Assembly (NCBI GenBank): GCA_009885695.1
Contig: VFKE01000044.1
Span: 1-41,367 of the forward strand
Direction of reading: 5' to 3'
Length of the DNA stretch: 41,367 nt
DNA from: Verrucomicrobiota bacterium
GTDB lineage: Bacteria > Verrucomicrobiota > Verrucomicrobiia > Verrucomicrobiales > Verrucomicrobiaceae
Of the stretch, positions 29,561 through 36,527 are shown piece by piece. Position 1 is the first letter of the stretch, and every line of letters starts with the position of its first letter. Made by a program: the position numbers and the translations under genes. Under the pieces are notes generated by a model. The model was not told where the DNA came from. It searched no databases and was given only the letters and a program-made list of their open reading frames with translations.

Positions 29561-30382
29561 TCACTTCAATGCCTCTTTGATGGATTTTATGACCTGGTTG
29601 GCTATGATCTTGTAGCCGTCTGGCAAAAAATGCACGTTCGCGGGGAGCTGAAGTTCCGCTACTCTCGGCTTCACGAACGCGTAGAGATCGTCCACGGCGA
29701 TCCCGTTCTCCTTCATCACCCGCAACGCGACTTCGTTGTAGCGCACGACGTCGGCATCGGCGCGATAGGGGTAGAGTTTACCATCGGGCACCGGCGTGGT
29801 TGTGGCGAAGATGAGTTTGGCGCCGGTTGATTTTAGTTTGCCGACGATCTCGCGAATTTGTTTCTCGTAAGCTTCGACGCTGGACTGCGGCGGGTCGGTG
29901 GCCCGCTCGGAGGTCTTTCCGTGAACCTCGTGCTTCAGGTCATGCAGTCCCCAGTTAAAATGAATTACGTCCCATTTGCCACCATCGATCAGGAGCCAGC
30001 GGTCGATGTTCGCCACGCCGCTCTTAGTGCCGCTGCAGTTCTCCGCCTTCCCGTCATCGGTCCTGGGCCTGTGCACGGATAATTCATTGGCCAGCATTTT
30101 TCGAACGAATGGCGTATAGCCGATGGAGATGGAGTCCCCGAGGATGAGCAGCCGTTTTTTGACCGGCGAGTCGGCGGCGCTGATCGAGCCGGCACTGCAG
30201 AGGACGTGAAGTCGGTTCACATTCGGCGTCTGCAAGATTGGATTTCCATTGGCCGAGACATCGCCAAAGCCCTGGTCGTCTGTGAGGATGAAGATGATGT
30301 TGGGACGTTTCCCTGTGATGGATTCAGCCCGGAGCGGGATGATGAGCAGCGAGGCGGCGAGGAGGATGGAGGAGAGCTTCAT
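29561..30382 (-). CDS. SGNH/GDSL hydrolase with a truncated sulfatase N-terminus
   Basis: This 273-residue exported protein has a signal peptide ([19 protein letters not shown]). Residues 25-58, [17 protein letters not shown]...TPNVNRL, are the start of an arylsulfatase including the metal-binding Asp35-Asp36, but the CxPxR formylglycine motif is absent. After a join near residue 60, an SGNH hydrolase begins: [12 protein letters not shown] (nucleophile Ser84), FNWGLHDLK and VHFLPDGY (His251). The Asp of the usual DxxH motif is Ala here (ANVH). Carbohydrate deacetylation is possible but unproven. An upstream in-frame start at 30457 is less likely. Confidence 0.8.
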
Positions 30383-30489
30383 GCGCGTGCCAACACCTTG
30401 CTGCGCAATAGCGCGAAGCTCAATAGAACAAACTCTGCAATTTGTTCCTTGTTTCACGTGGCCGAAAGTCTAGGCTGCGGCATCCAAAG

Positions 30490-33400
30490 ATGAGCAGCGC
30501 CGCCGCTGAACCAACACCGCCGTCCAAGACCCGTGCTGCACGCCGGTTTCGGTATGCACCACTCCGAACAGGCTGGCAGCCGCTCTGGCGCCGGCTCTGG
30601 AACCGGATGAGCGATCACAAGCCAAAGCCGGCCGCATATTCGATGCTCCCTGTTCTCATGGAGGTCTTTGCCGGCTTCAGCAAACTCGACGGCGAAGTTA
30701 TGGAGGAGGAGATCGACGCCAGCCTCGGCTTCATGCGCTACGATTATCCGGAGGCCGTATATTCCGAGCTGCGCCGCGTTTATCTTGAGGCTTTGCAGAA
30801 AGCGCAGGATCTCAATGCCCGCGCCCGCCAGTTGAACAAGTCACTCACGATGGAGCAGAAAATCCTGCTCGGGGTGCAGCTCTATCTGCTGATCTCCCGC
30901 TCGGCCAACACACGACAGCAGCTCGTGGAGTTCTATCTCTTCATGACGAATCTCGGCATCGCCTCGCAGGCGATCGATATCGTCTATCAACTCAACTCCG
31001 AGGAACGCCCGACTGACGACGCCGAATTTCGCACGCCCAGCGGCCAGCCCCTGGAGACATTACGCATCGCCTCACGCGATCCGCACGACGTGCTGCTGCG
31101 CTCACTCTCGGCGGAGTGTCACGTCACTTCTTTCCGGTATCAAAACCTTGTTCTGTTAAAAAATACCGGCGTCGTCCCCGTGCTGGTGCGCAGTCGAACG
31201 CTGCGCCCTGGCGATTTCTCCCGCCTCTATCCCGGTGAGCGGGTGGTGCTTGAGGATGCGTCGCTCGATTATTCGGACTTCATTTCCTATTTCAATTCCA
31301 AGAAGAACCTCACCGGCACTCAGCTCTACCTGACGTTCACCGATGAGGGGAGCGCGGAAATCTCGCAGAACCGCAGCCGCGGGACTAATCTTCGGGTCAG
31401 TTTCGGACTTAGTGTCGTCATCGAGGCACTGCGCGATACCGATGCCAGGATCAACGGGAAACGTCTGCGCACGGGCACCAAGATCGAAGCTTCCATTGAG
31501 GACAAGCTTATCGTGCAGGGCGAGGTGGAAATTTCCCTCCAGGAACTTCGCCGTCGCGCGCGGGAGTTTGGCGAACAGTTCCGGTTGGAAGGCAGCCGCA
31601 ACACCTACCTGGTTTCAAATAATCCCGATTTGCTTGAGCAGGGCGACATTCTTCTGACCAACGAGGGTGAGGGCGAGATCCTGCTAAAAATTGTTTGTGA
31701 CTATGAGGCCAAGACCGGTGAGCTGGAAGTGTTGCGTGCCGCGCACCCGGTATTTGTCGGAACATCTCTGGTCAAGGATCGGCATCATTTGCTGGAAGGC
31801 GATACGATCACGCTCTGGGAAGGGCAATATCTCCGCTGCCATTTTGCCGACCACATCATCGAGGAAGAACGCAATGTCATCCGACTGGTTGAATTGCGCG
31901 AGATCGGTCATCGTTTTGGCAGCCAGAGAGACACCGCGCTGGAGGGGATAAATCTCACTGCACGCCGCGGTGAGATGATCTGTGTGATGGGTCCTAGTGG
32001 CTGCGGGAAAAGCACGCTGTTGCGTCTGCTTGCGGGTCAACTCAAGCCAGGCAGCGGCGACGTGCTGATGAACAATTTCGCGCTCTACGATCACGCCAGG
32101 GAGCTCTGTCCATATATCGCTTACATCCCGCAGGAGGATGCGTTCGATCCTTTGTTGCGCGTCCAGGAAAACCTCGATTACTCCGTGGCCGTGCGCTGTC
32201 CGCACCTCTCATCAGAGGAGCGGCGTAAGCGCGTGGATGCCAAGCTCGTCGAACTGGGTCTCAACGAGATGCGCCACCGACTCGCGGGCACGCCACAGCA
32301 GAAAAATCTCAGCGGTGGCGAGCGGAAGCGGCTCAATGCGGGGCTCGATATGATCGGAATCGCTGACGTTTACTTGTTCGATGAGCCAACTTCGGGCCTT
32401 TCCTCGAAAGACTCCGAGCATGTGCTCGAGATCATCCGCTCGCTGGCGCATAACAAGATCGTCTTCTCTTCCATCCACCAGCCCAGCATGAAGCTGCTCC
32501 GGATGTTCGACAAGGCGCTGCTGCTCGACAAGGGGGGGAAGATGGCCTTCTTCGGCACGCCGCAGGCCATGCTGGAATATTTCTGGGAAGCTTATCACGA
32601 AGAGACCGGCCAGCGTGACGAGTCAGCGCAGATGCCTGATAAGATTACGCCGGATTTTGTTTTCGACGTGCTGGAGACTCCGCTGCGCGATATCAGCGGC
32701 GACATCCTTCAGGAGCAGACACCCGACGGGCACATGATGCAGGCGCGGCGTTTTCCACCGAACTTCTGGCGTGACCGATTCCAGACGCACGCGCTTCTGC
32801 GCACCATGACGCGGGAGATGGAGACGAAACGTGACGCCTCGCGTCAGGACACCCTGGCCCAGCCTCGCAAGCCGCCTGCGCCGTCGAAGATAAATTTTCA
32901 TGGAGAATGCATTCTCTTCATGACCATGCTGAAGCGCGCCTTCCTCAGCAAGCTGCGCAACCGGGCGAATCTGCTCACGACCTTGCTGGAGGCTCCGGTG
33001 CTGGCCTTCCTCATCTCGATGGTGCTTCGCTATTCCGAGGAGGATCACTACACATTCGCTTCGGCCTTTCACATCCCCACCTACATCTTTTTATCGCTGG
33101 TGGTGGCCATGTTCCTGGGCCTCACCAACAGCGCCGACGAAATCATCCGCGACCGGCACATGCTGAACCGCGAGCGAAATCACAACCTGCGCGTCTCCTA
33201 CTACATTTGTGGCAAGGTTCTCGCGCTGGCCGCCTTCGCGTTCATCCAGTGCGTCATTTACCTCTGGATCGGGAATGCCGTGCTGGAAATCCGCCAGATG
33301 TTCACCATTCATCTGCTCTGGATGTTTCTCACGTCGCTGACCGGGGCTTGTATGGGTCTGCTGGTATCCTCGATTGTGCACGACTCCCGCACGGCATTGA

Positions 33401-34188
33401 ACATCATCCCGCTGCTTTTGATCCCGCAGATCATTCTCGGGGGAGCTCTCATCAAATATGAGGAGATGAATCGCAATCTGGACTTTGTTTACTCCATTCG
33501 CCGCTGGGTGGAGAACAAAGCCGGCGATGACTCCAGTGCCGCCAGCAAGCTCAAGGTCCCTTTGATCTGCCAGTTCATGCCTTTGCGCTGGTCCTACGAA
33601 TCGGTCATCATCTCCCAGGCGAAACTTAATCCGCTCACGCGCAGCCAGGAGTCACTGGAAAACCGTATCCAGTCGCTCATCCCGCCTGCCGGAGAGCAGA
33701 TGACGAAGCCGCAGCGCCAGGAACTTGACCGCGCCAAGCAGGCGCTCGCTGTTGTCTCCGGACTTCAGGACAATGATGCAGATGACATTATGCGTCGTCT
33801 CCACCGGATTCAGGATGGTATTGAATCCGGCAATATGGACCCGGAGCTGCTGGATCCACCCAAGGGGCGTCGCATGGTCAGCGCCGAGGAAATATTTGTG
33901 AATCGCAAAGTGCTAGACCTCGTCACCAAAGCAGAAATGGAGCGCGAAGATTACCGGCGCACTTCGAGTCCCAACGTCTTTTTCGGCACTGTGCGAACCT
34001 ATCCTTTGCTCACTCCAGCGGCGACGGTGGTGGGAAATCCCACTGCACGAAGGAGCGCACCCAAACCTTGGTATGAAGAGCTACGCATCGACACGCTGTT
34101 TCTGAATGCCACGGTGATGGTCCTCTCGCTCGCAGTTGTCATTGGCGTCCTTCTGTTCTCTTTGCGCAGGCAGTTGTCTCGGGTGTGA
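30490..34188 (+). CDS. TerB-like/ABCG-type ABC transporter fusion (1232 residues)
   Basis: The N-terminal region (about 40-140) resembles the helical TerB/DjlA domain: EVFAGFSKLDGEVMEEEIDA. Residues 150-480 are beta-rich with a possible degenerate FHA-like part (DARINGKRLRTGTKIE), followed by a second linker. The ATP-binding domain has Walker A GPSGCGKST (501-509), signature LSGGERKR (607-614) and Walker B VYLFDEPTSGL (627-637), then an H-loop SIHQPS. An ABC2-type membrane domain follows (FLSKLRNRANLLTT near 817, several helices) and a last helix (VMVLSLAVVIGVLLF) near the C-terminus. Half-transporters of this kind would dimerise; the cargo is unknown. ATG 30490 is chosen; ATG 30442 is an alternative. 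Confidence 0.88.
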   Translation: MSSAAAEPTPPSKTRAARRFRYAPLRTGWQPLWRRLWNRMSDHKPKPAAYSMLPVLMEVFAGFSKLDGEVMEEEIDASLGFMRYDYPEAVYSELRRVYLEALQKAQDLNARARQLNKSLTMEQKILLGVQLYLLISRSANTRQQLVEFYLFMTNLGIASQAIDIVYQLNSEERPTDDAEFRTPSGQPLETLRIASRDPHDVLLRSLSAECHVTSFRYQNLVLLKNTGVVPVLVRSRTLRPGDFSRLYPGERVVLEDASLDYSDFISYFNSKKNLTGTQLYLTFTDEGSAEISQNRSRGTNLRVSFGLSVVIEALRDTDARINGKRLRTGTKIEASIEDKLIVQGEVEISLQELRRRAREFGEQFRLEGSRNTYLVSNNPDLLEQGDILLTNEGEGEILLKIVCDYEAKTGELEVLRAAHPVFVGTSLVKDRHHLLEGDTITLWEGQYLRCHFADHIIEEERNVIRLVELREIGHRFGSQRDTALEGINLTARRGEMICVMGPSGCGKSTLLRLLAGQLKPGSGDVLMNNFALYDHARELCPYIAYIPQEDAFDPLLRVQENLDYSVAVRCPHLSSEERRKRVDAKLVELGLNEMRHRLAGTPQQKNLSGGERKRLNAGLDMIGIADVYLFDEPTSGLSSKDSEHVLEIIRSLAHNKIVFSSIHQPSMKLLRMFDKALLLDKGGKMAFFGTPQAMLEYFWEAYHEETGQRDESAQMPDKITPDFVFDVLETPLRDISGDILQEQTPDGHMMQARRFPPNFWRDRFQTHALLRTMTREMETKRDASRQDTLAQPRKPPAPSKINFHGECILFMTMLKRAFLSKLRNRANLLTTLLEAPVLAFLISMVLRYSEEDHYTFASAFHIPTYIFLSLVVAMFLGLTNSADEIIRDRHMLNRERNHNLRVSYYICGKVLALAAFAFIQCVIYLWIGNAVLEIRQMFTIHLLWMFLTSLTGACMGLLVSSIVHDSRTALNIIPLLLIPQIILGGALIKYEEMNRNLDFVYSIRRWVENKAGDDSSAASKLKVPLICQFMPLRWSYESVIISQAKLNPLTRSQESLENRIQSLIPPAGEQMTKPQRQELDRAKQALAVVSGLQDNDADDIMRRLHRIQDGIESGNMDPELLDPPKGRRMVSAEEIFVNRKVLDLVTKAEMEREDYRRTSSPNVFFGTVRTYPLLTPAATVVGNPTARRSAPKPWYEELRIDTLFLNATVMVLSLAVVIGVLLFSLRRQLSRV

Positions 34189-34287: not shown

Positions 34288-35202
34288 TCAGTGTTGCATA
34301 AATTCCACCAACTCACAGCCGGGCATGGGATGATGGTTCTCACAGCGCCAGACGAATACGGGCTGACCCCTGCCGAACGATTCCGGCTTGCCATTGAGAA
34401 TACGGGTATCACCGAGCATGTCTGCGCCGGGTCGCACGATCACCGAACGCGCTGCGACGCTGCCATTGAGCAGAGCACCGGGATGAAGCACCACACTGCC
34501 CTCACAAACGAAATCCCCCGTGACCTTGCCATGAACCACCAGTTCACCAGTGCGCACCTCTTGGAGGAACTGGACCTCACAATACGGCAGAACCTCGATG
34601 CGCCGCGCCCTGACCGTGCCTCCGATGATGTCGCTGGTTGTGTATCGGATTTCAGGAAGATGCGCGCGGTTTAATGTGCTGGTATCGTCCACCAGCTTCA
34701 GTGGACGGAGGCAGGCTGGGCAGCTGGGCGTGCCGGCATCACCCGCAGTGGCAAGGTTAAAAAAATATTCACGGTGCTGCGGTGGCAGCTCATTCAGGCG
34801 CAGCGCCATCAATGATGCGTCTAATAACTCAATTCCTGACTTTTCTCCGATTAAACGCGCGGTGGGAGTGAAGCCCGCTGGCGAGATGAACATTCCGTGA
34901 TTCTGGTGTCGAAGTTCGAGCTCCATCGCAAACTGTGTCAGGCATTCCCCTGAGGCCATCCACTGGTGCCAGCGGGTCAGTCGGACCAGGGTGCCCGCTT
35001 CTGCCGGGGCATCGCCTCGCGTGATGACGAAATCCGTTTGACCTTCGGCGCTCAGAATTGTTTTGCCCAGCTTTAAGCCGTAGGATGCGGACAGTGCGCG
35101 GGCCAGTTGAGTGATGCGTTTCCAGTCCAATCCGGCGATCAATTCGCCCGACCACCGGGGGGGTAAATTCTCGACCTTGGTGCTGGGGTCGGCTTCATTC
35201 AT
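34288..35202 (-). CDS. Degenerate Mrr-like nuclease fold fused to a bactofilin-like domain
   Basis: In this 304-residue protein, residues 27-140 follow the Mrr-type restriction endonuclease fold: WKRITQLARAL, QTDFVITRGD, GTLVRLTRWHQW, GMFISPAGFTPTARLIGEKSGIELLDA. The Asp (D57) remains, but the QxK motif reads R-L-T, so cleavage is unlikely. A zinc-ribbon-like CPAC (161-164) leads to a beta-helical polymer-forming region (DIIGGTVRARRIEV...VVHGKVTGDFVCEGSVVLHPGALLNGSVAARSVIV, roughly 191-268) resembling bactofilins, and the C-terminus has a second Cys pair (C287, C296). ATG 35202 is chosen. It diverges from metX with 116 bases between starts. Confidence 0.7.
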   Translation of the reverse strand: MNEADPSTKVENLPPRWSGELIAGLDWKRITQLARALSASYGLKLGKTILSAEGQTDFVITRGDAPAEAGTLVRLTRWHQWMASGECLTQFAMELELRHQNHGMFISPAGFTPTARLIGEKSGIELLDASLMALRLNELPPQHREYFFNLATAGDAGTPSCPACLRPLKLVDDTSTLNRAHLPEIRYTTSDIIGGTVRARRIEVLPYCEVQFLQEVRTGELVVHGKVTGDFVCEGSVVLHPGALLNGSVAARSVIVRPGADMLGDTRILNGKPESFGRGQPVFVWRCENHHPMPGCELVEFMQH

Positions 35203-35318: not shown

Positions 35319-36527
35319 ATGTCCGCAAAATCCCAGGTCGAAACCCACGCGAAATTTGCCCGTATTGCGACACCGGGGCATCCCTTCAAGTTCGCGTCTG
35401 GCGCGAAGTTTGATGATCTCACCCTGGCCTATGAGACGCACGGCAGGCTGAATGCATCCAAGAGTAACGCCATTCTGTTGTTTCACGCACTTTCAGGCAG
35501 CCAGCATGTCGCCGGTCATTGCCGCAATGTCGCGGGAACGGACGAGCGCTGGACGGAGGACTGCCAGCAGGGCTGGTGGGAGCCCTTTATTGGTCCCGGC
35601 AAGGCGCTGGACACGAGCCGTTACTTCATCGTCTGCGCGAATTATCTCGGCGGTTGCTACGGCAGCAGCGGTCCGGCCTCAATCAATCCCAAGACCGGCG
35701 AGCCGTTCGGTGCGTCGTTCCCGCCGGTGCTCACGAGCGATGTCGTGCGCTCGCAAGCCATTCTTCTCGACCAGCTGGGCATCACGAAGCTTCATGCAGT
35801 CATGGGGGCTTCGATCGGCGGCATGATGACTTTGAATTTCGCGACGATGTTTCCCGAGCGGGTGAATCTGGTGGTGCCCATTGCCAGCGGTCTGCGCACC
35901 ACGGTGCTCACCAGGCTCCATGTTTTCGAGCAGGTCATGGCCATAGAAAACGATCCCCATTTCCGCGGTGGAGACTATTACGACGGTGCCGCACCGGAGT
36001 ATGGTCTGGTCCTGGCGCGGATGATCTCGCACAAGACTTTCGTGCATCTTGATGCCATCGAGCGCCGCGCCCGCGGCGATGTGATCCAGCGAGGCGACCA
36101 ACTGGCGTGGTTCAAACTGGGCCATAACGTCGAGAGTTACATGCTGCATCAGGGAAAAAAATTTGTGAGGCGTTTTGACGCCAACACCTACCTGCGCATT
36201 TGCAACATGTGGCTCCGCTTCGATCCCTTGCGGGATGCCAAGGTGCGAAGTTACGAGAAGCTCTTTGCCATCTCGAAGAAGCACAACCATCACTACCTCA
36301 TCTTTAGCATCGACTCCGACTTCTGTTTCTATCCCGAGGAACAGGCGGAGTATGTCCGGGCGCTGGAGAACTCGGGCGTGTCCGTGATGCACATCACGGT
36401 GCATTCCGAGAAAGGTCACGATTCCTTTCTGCTCGAACCCGAACTGTTCACGCCCCACCTCGCCTACACGCTCCGGCGTGGCACGACGGAGATGGAGGAT
36501 GGAGAAAGGAACGATCCGGGTTTGTAG
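35319..36527 (+). CDS. metX: Homoserine O-acetyltransferase (MetX family)
   Basis: MetX acylates homoserine to start methionine synthesis. The 402-residue alpha/beta hydrolase has the signature NYLGGCYGSSGPASINP and the nucleophile Ser165 in MGASIGGMM. It also has Asp334 in SDFCFYP and His367 in KGHDSFL, completing the catalytic triad. LAYETHGRLNASKSNAIL and LFHALSGSQHVAG are typical family segments. Whether the acyl donor is acetyl- or succinyl-CoA cannot be told safely by eye; the MetX name follows the sequence family. Confidence 0.94.
   Translation: MSAKSQVETHAKFARIATPGHPFKFASGAKFDDLTLAYETHGRLNASKSNAILLFHALSGSQHVAGHCRNVAGTDERWTEDCQQGWWEPFIGPGKALDTSRYFIVCANYLGGCYGSSGPASINPKTGEPFGASFPPVLTSDVVRSQAILLDQLGITKLHAVMGASIGGMMTLNFATMFPERVNLVVPIASGLRTTVLTRLHVFEQVMAIENDPHFRGGDYYDGAAPEYGLVLARMISHKTFVHLDAIERRARGDVIQRGDQLAWFKLGHNVESYMLHQGKKFVRRFDANTYLRICNMWLRFDPLRDAKVRSYEKLFAISKKHNHHYLIFSIDSDFCFYPEEQAEYVRALENSGVSVMHITVHSEKGHDSFLLEPELFTPHLAYTLRRGTTEMEDGERNDPGL

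Follow-up and report, generated by a model that had tools for sequence, protein, structure and literature searches.

Bactofilins usually consist of a core with flexible flanking tails, often including an N-terminal membrane peptide (PMC12448750), and in Myxococcus xanthus they organise chromosome segregation, in a system comprising BacNOP, PadC and ParABS (PMC5703909). Separately, the phylum Verrucomicrobiota contains predicted nucleases that join an Mrr catalytic domain (Mrr_cat, PF04471) to a Top1-type zinc ribbon (Zn_ribbon_Top1, PF01396). The open-access literature searched held no Mrr–bactofilin or ribbon–bactofilin protein, in keeping with the first-pass annotation of this DNA, which knew of no described system with that arrangement. 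The stretch analysed here (41,367 nucleotides of Verrucomicrobiota contig VFKE01000044.1; ‘the window’) encodes what we file, from its sequence, as a new variant on known domains: a bactofilin-domain protein built on a dead Mrr head and a Top1-type ribbon, the bactofilin being predicted to lie not as a core with tails but as a domain that interrupts the dead nuclease's zinc ribbon.

The gene occupies exactly 35202..34288 on the minus strand (34288..35202 in forward numbering) and encodes 304 amino acids from an ATG that aligns with the start in the closest orthologue, that of a genus-mate (L006). It comprises a dead Mrr-fold head, a split Top1-type zinc ribbon and an inserted bactofilin, and the AlphaFold2 model has a pLDDT of 89.1 and a pTM of 0.72. 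An alignment of 54 orthologues, to which all per-residue counts given here refer, contains 53 members that match Mrr_cat and 54 that match Bactofilin in Pfam, so the combination of domains is not due to chance; profile–profile comparison, AlphaFold2/Foldseek and residue conservation likewise agree with the pairing of an Mrr fold and a bactofilin proposed at first pass. Of the 68 genomes in the window's family, 55 carried full-length orthologues of the same architecture; two further (sister) families have them rarely, their fused proteins having been recovered by a profile search across the order; a search of genome contigs with the window protein alone matched only the genus-mate. NCBIfam gave no match to the window protein, and the single match among plasmid relatives was a Thauera restriction endonuclease (54% coverage). 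Between the window gene and that of L006, dN/dS (NG86) was about 0.15–0.16 overall and low in each part (Mrr 0.14, bactofilin 0.12), so purifying selection is, on this estimate, acting on both. A 56th family copy is split into two overlapping pieces (G037:C488:9050-9923), and G016:C3:169532-169750 is a degraded remnant with stops; such copies could reflect ongoing loss of the gene in certain lineages, or else errors of assembly.

The N-terminal head (aa 24–142; 34777..35133, minus strand) resembles Mrr and other restriction endonucleases. Pfam places Mrr_cat at aa 24–130 (E=1.1e-7, 32.4 bits, cut-off 21), hhalign matched the ortholog alignment to the unsplit Mrr-plus-ribbon family with a probability of 99.6 across aa 12–173, and Foldseek matched the head, with modest E-values, to the nucleases MspJI, EcoT38I and AspBHI and also to RPB5. 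The first-pass annotation had assigned the Mrr fold to residues 27–140, with which Mrr_cat and AlphaFold2/Foldseek concur, and its GMFISPAGFTPTA is indeed found in the window protein. The catalytic QxK is replaced, as had been noted there, by R-L-T (aa 74–76), and it is lost from 54/54 orthologues, nearly all the others having K/R-x-A/S/T/V at that site. Asp57, also listed as retained, is present in the window protein but in only 5/54 orthologues, and is rejected as a conserved relic or feature of the family. With QxK lost throughout and Asp so rare, the family is predicted to be catalytically dead and nuclease activity is very unlikely; the catalytic D...QxK, a defining feature of Mrr enzymes, was looked for and is lacking, so that the window protein is, on its residues, not one of them. 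Of two outcomes named at first pass as contrary to its reading, the absence of an Mrr-like fold and the retention of QxK, neither occurred: the fold is predicted and the fused family is without QxK. Other positions in the head are invariant (D26, W27, R29, R35, W78, G103, G110 and D128). Three other proteins (L042, L043 and L048, family f5) combine Mrr with a zinc ribbon, have also lost the catalytic motif and are without bactofilin; judged from these, the motif seems to have been lost more than once.

The zinc ribbon falls into two parts. Its first half is CPAC (aa 161–164; 34711..34722, minus strand), which aligns with the TPTCPxC of relatives that have Mrr and Zn_ribbon_Top1, and its second is WRC...C (aa 285–304; 34291..34350, minus strand), with C161, P162, C164, W285, C287, C296 and the terminal H304 all invariant (54/54). 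Together these give the C4 pattern CPxC...W-x-C...C, whose four putative metal cysteines are those expected of Zn_ribbon_Top1, although the ribbon is not contiguous, its halves being separated by about 120 residues, bactofilin included; the window protein itself falls below a match to PF01396. The unsplit relatives end in TPTCPxC...FWGCxxYPRC, recognised by Pfam as Zn_ribbon_Top1 in 5/7, and when the bactofilin was removed in silico the C-terminal tail of the family aligned with the second half of their ribbon. The ribbon alone scored 61.0, where column shuffles averaged 49.2 (1/200 shuffles as high); homology of the tail in whole-protein hhalign was weak, 1/30 and 4/200 shuffles being equal or higher. 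The case for a split ribbon became firm, at the level of sequence, only once sister-family proteins were added: the tail of one of these (L139), IWGCPNYPKC, matches PF01396 profile positions 23–36/39 (E=1.5e-4), and its CPAC lies >100 residues upstream. Because the second half of the ribbon forms the C-terminus, the bactofilin is, as far as the alignments indicate, an insertion inside a C4 zinc ribbon and not an end-to-end fusion. The CPxC, described at first pass as a zinc-ribbon-like link, thus stands as an invariant ribbon element; as an inter-domain link or simple linker it is rejected, the other half of the ribbon, WxC...C, being the invariant C-terminus.

The inserted bactofilin β-helix extends over about aa 180–270 (34393..34665, minus strand). 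The Pfam match (PF04519, aa 214–265: E=6e-7, 30.1 bits, cut-off 27.9) covers the second half of the model only (positions 45–96/98), and the strands of the AlphaFold2 model and the Foldseek matches to 6rib (TM 0.62 by target length) and 2n3d bear out the β-helix seen at first pass. Substitution of F130 by Arg in BacA abolishes assembly (PMC12448750); the aligned position here is Leu in 48 orthologues, Met in 3, Ile in 2 and Phe in 1, and is hydrophobic throughout. Given the half-length match and the predominance of Leu/Met at this position, it is uncertain from sequence whether the fused protein polymerises by itself.

The insert appears to derive from a different bactofilin, one with two zinc ribbons and a tandem bactofilin region, which is encoded in the same genome as the window and widely in the order. 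In BLAST against a small set of proteins its best matches were the C-terminal halves of such proteins, including the one from the same genome (33% identical, E=2.7e-12), and it was less similar to canonical bactofilin. The copy at L098:9661-10644 (minus strand, in G000:C190) has CxxC...CxxC twice followed by repeated bactofilin stretches, neither ribbon being recognised by Pfam; it adjoins a canonical bactofilin, with gyrB/gyrA-like ORFs close by.

In trees of the head, the fused proteins of the window's family form one clade (100/100). One protein, L141:3998-4654 (plus strand), has a dead Mrr head and an unbroken ribbon without bactofilin; its head is 55% identical to that of the fused L139, whose nearest relative it is, and the two pair in the tree (100/99). 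A single clade of all fused proteins that excludes L141 is disfavoured (p-AU 0.015, in a test with long branches and a group defined after an earlier tree had been seen). Since it is disfavoured, the tree favours, though not firmly, loss of bactofilin from L141, or repeated gain of bactofilin, over a pre-insertion state of L141.

The surroundings of the gene name no pathway: among 38 ortholog contexts there was no conserved operon pointing to one. The divergent gene at 35319..36527 (plus strand; PF00561, alpha/beta hydrolase fold) is metX-like, putatively a homoserine O-acetyltransferase by resemblance; a metX-like gene is adjacent and divergent in 19/38 contexts and the remaining neighbours vary. 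A function based on an operon was rejected, metX alone being widely common, and divergent, in those contexts. Within the window, 30442-34188 (plus strand) encodes an ABC-2 type transporter of 1248 aa whose N-terminus resembles TerB (below cut-off); its gene is convergent with the fused gene and adjoins it only in the window's own genus. The ORF at 29561-30457 (minus strand) begins with the first 32 positions of the PF00884 sulfatase profile (below cut-off), continues as a complete GDSL/SGNH hydrolase and could be a gene-remnant fusion.

As a whole these data are best explained, with a probability of roughly 0.45, by an adaptor whose bactofilin joins assemblies while its head holds a partner. 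A C-terminal bactofilin β-helix, inserted between the two zinc-ribbon halves of a dead member of the Mrr plus Top1-zinc-ribbon nuclease family, would join or cap bactofilin assemblies, those formed by the two-ribbon tandem bactofilin being the probable ones. The head of dead nuclease and ribbon would project out of the assembly to hold a partner, for which DNA, or a protein bound to DNA, is the most plausible candidate. Co-assembly with bactofilin, the nature of the partner and the role in the cell are the parts that we infer. DNA is a natural guess as partner because both modules of the head descend from DNA-handling domains and because bactofilins organise ParABS in Myxococcus (PMC5703909). 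Charge speaks against strong DNA binding: the Mrr head has a mean net charge of -2.7, whereas that of the unsplit relatives is -0.2, and the ribbon, about +5 in those relatives, is about +2 in the fused family and -2 in the window protein. It is doubtful, for its part, that a former nuclease, with a bactofilin β-helix inserted into its own DNA-binding zinc ribbon, now tethers DNA directly to the cytoskeleton, one polypeptide both taking its place in bactofilin polymers and holding on to the chromosome. The first-pass annotation had put forward a DNA tether, or a scaffold associated with the membrane or a cell pole, as candidate roles.

Among the alternatives, it is possible, if on the unlikely side, that the head has given up DNA altogether and holds a protein partner on a bactofilin scaffold. 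Catalytic residues have gone from 54/54 orthologues while other head positions stay invariant, the head carries a net negative charge, the ribbon is less basic than its unsplit counterparts, and the fold matches include RPB5, a non-catalytic polymerase subunit. The invariant Cys and Trp of the ribbon are, however, as expected of a ribbon facing nucleic acid (they could be structural only), and gene context names no partner for such a protein. We consider it improbable that the bactofilin does no more than oligomerise or stack a dead nuclease that senses nucleic acid, having no tie to the cytoskeleton. The polymerisation Phe of bactofilin is not conserved, and 36/54 orthologues show a weak match to NA-iREase1, the inactive nuclease found in NACHT systems, but PADLOC gave no defence-family match to the window protein, on which ground a defence role was rejected, and only marginal matches in a few orthologues; no recognised defence genes were seen among the common neighbours inspected, and presence across most genomes of the family is unlike the patchy distribution typical of a defence gene. 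That the protein is an unusual nuclease, still active by means of other catalytic residues, is very improbable: the fold is predicted intact, but, besides the losses from the window's own family (QxK from 54/54, with Asp in 5/54), the complete-headed fused proteins of the sister families (L138, L139) also lack the full motif. A fusion of two genes created by gene calling, misassembly or frameshift can be practically dismissed, the architecture recurring in 55/68 family genomes and two further families with an unbroken reading frame under purifying selection.

Returning to the adaptor reading, in which the insert would join bactofilin assemblies and the head would hold a partner, the fused protein is a candidate for physically connecting the nucleoid to the cytoskeleton. 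Its conservation across most of one family, together with an insert-free counterpart in a sister family, makes it a clean evolutionary test case for the grafting of a cytoskeletal module into a DNA-handling protein.

Compared with known systems, BacNOP–PadC–ParABS offers a functional analogy only: bactofilins there hold DNA-segregation proteins through an adaptor, PadC, which is a separate, ParB-like protein whose relation to the Mrr head is not expected. Canonical bactofilins (BacA of Caulobacter, PDB 2n3d; Thermus, PDB 6rib) have the β-helix in common with the window protein, by Pfam, sequence and Foldseek, but in them the core carries tails, whereas in the window family it forms an insert, and Leu or Met mostly occupies the position aligned with the C-terminal interface Phe. 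The two-ribbon tandem bactofilin is closest to the insert in its C-terminal half, and differs in that its two N-terminal ribbons are of a different type, its bactofilin stretches are repeated and it lacks a nuclease head. The predicted Mrr_cat plus Zn_ribbon_Top1 nucleases of the same phylum (L039, L040 and L044) are homologous to the window protein from the first helix to CPxC, and the homology resumes in the half-ribbon at the C-terminus, WxC...C. These three and L041 keep DGGxD and QCK, whereas the window family is to all appearances dead, and where the ribbon of the nucleases is unbroken, that of the window family encloses a bactofilin.
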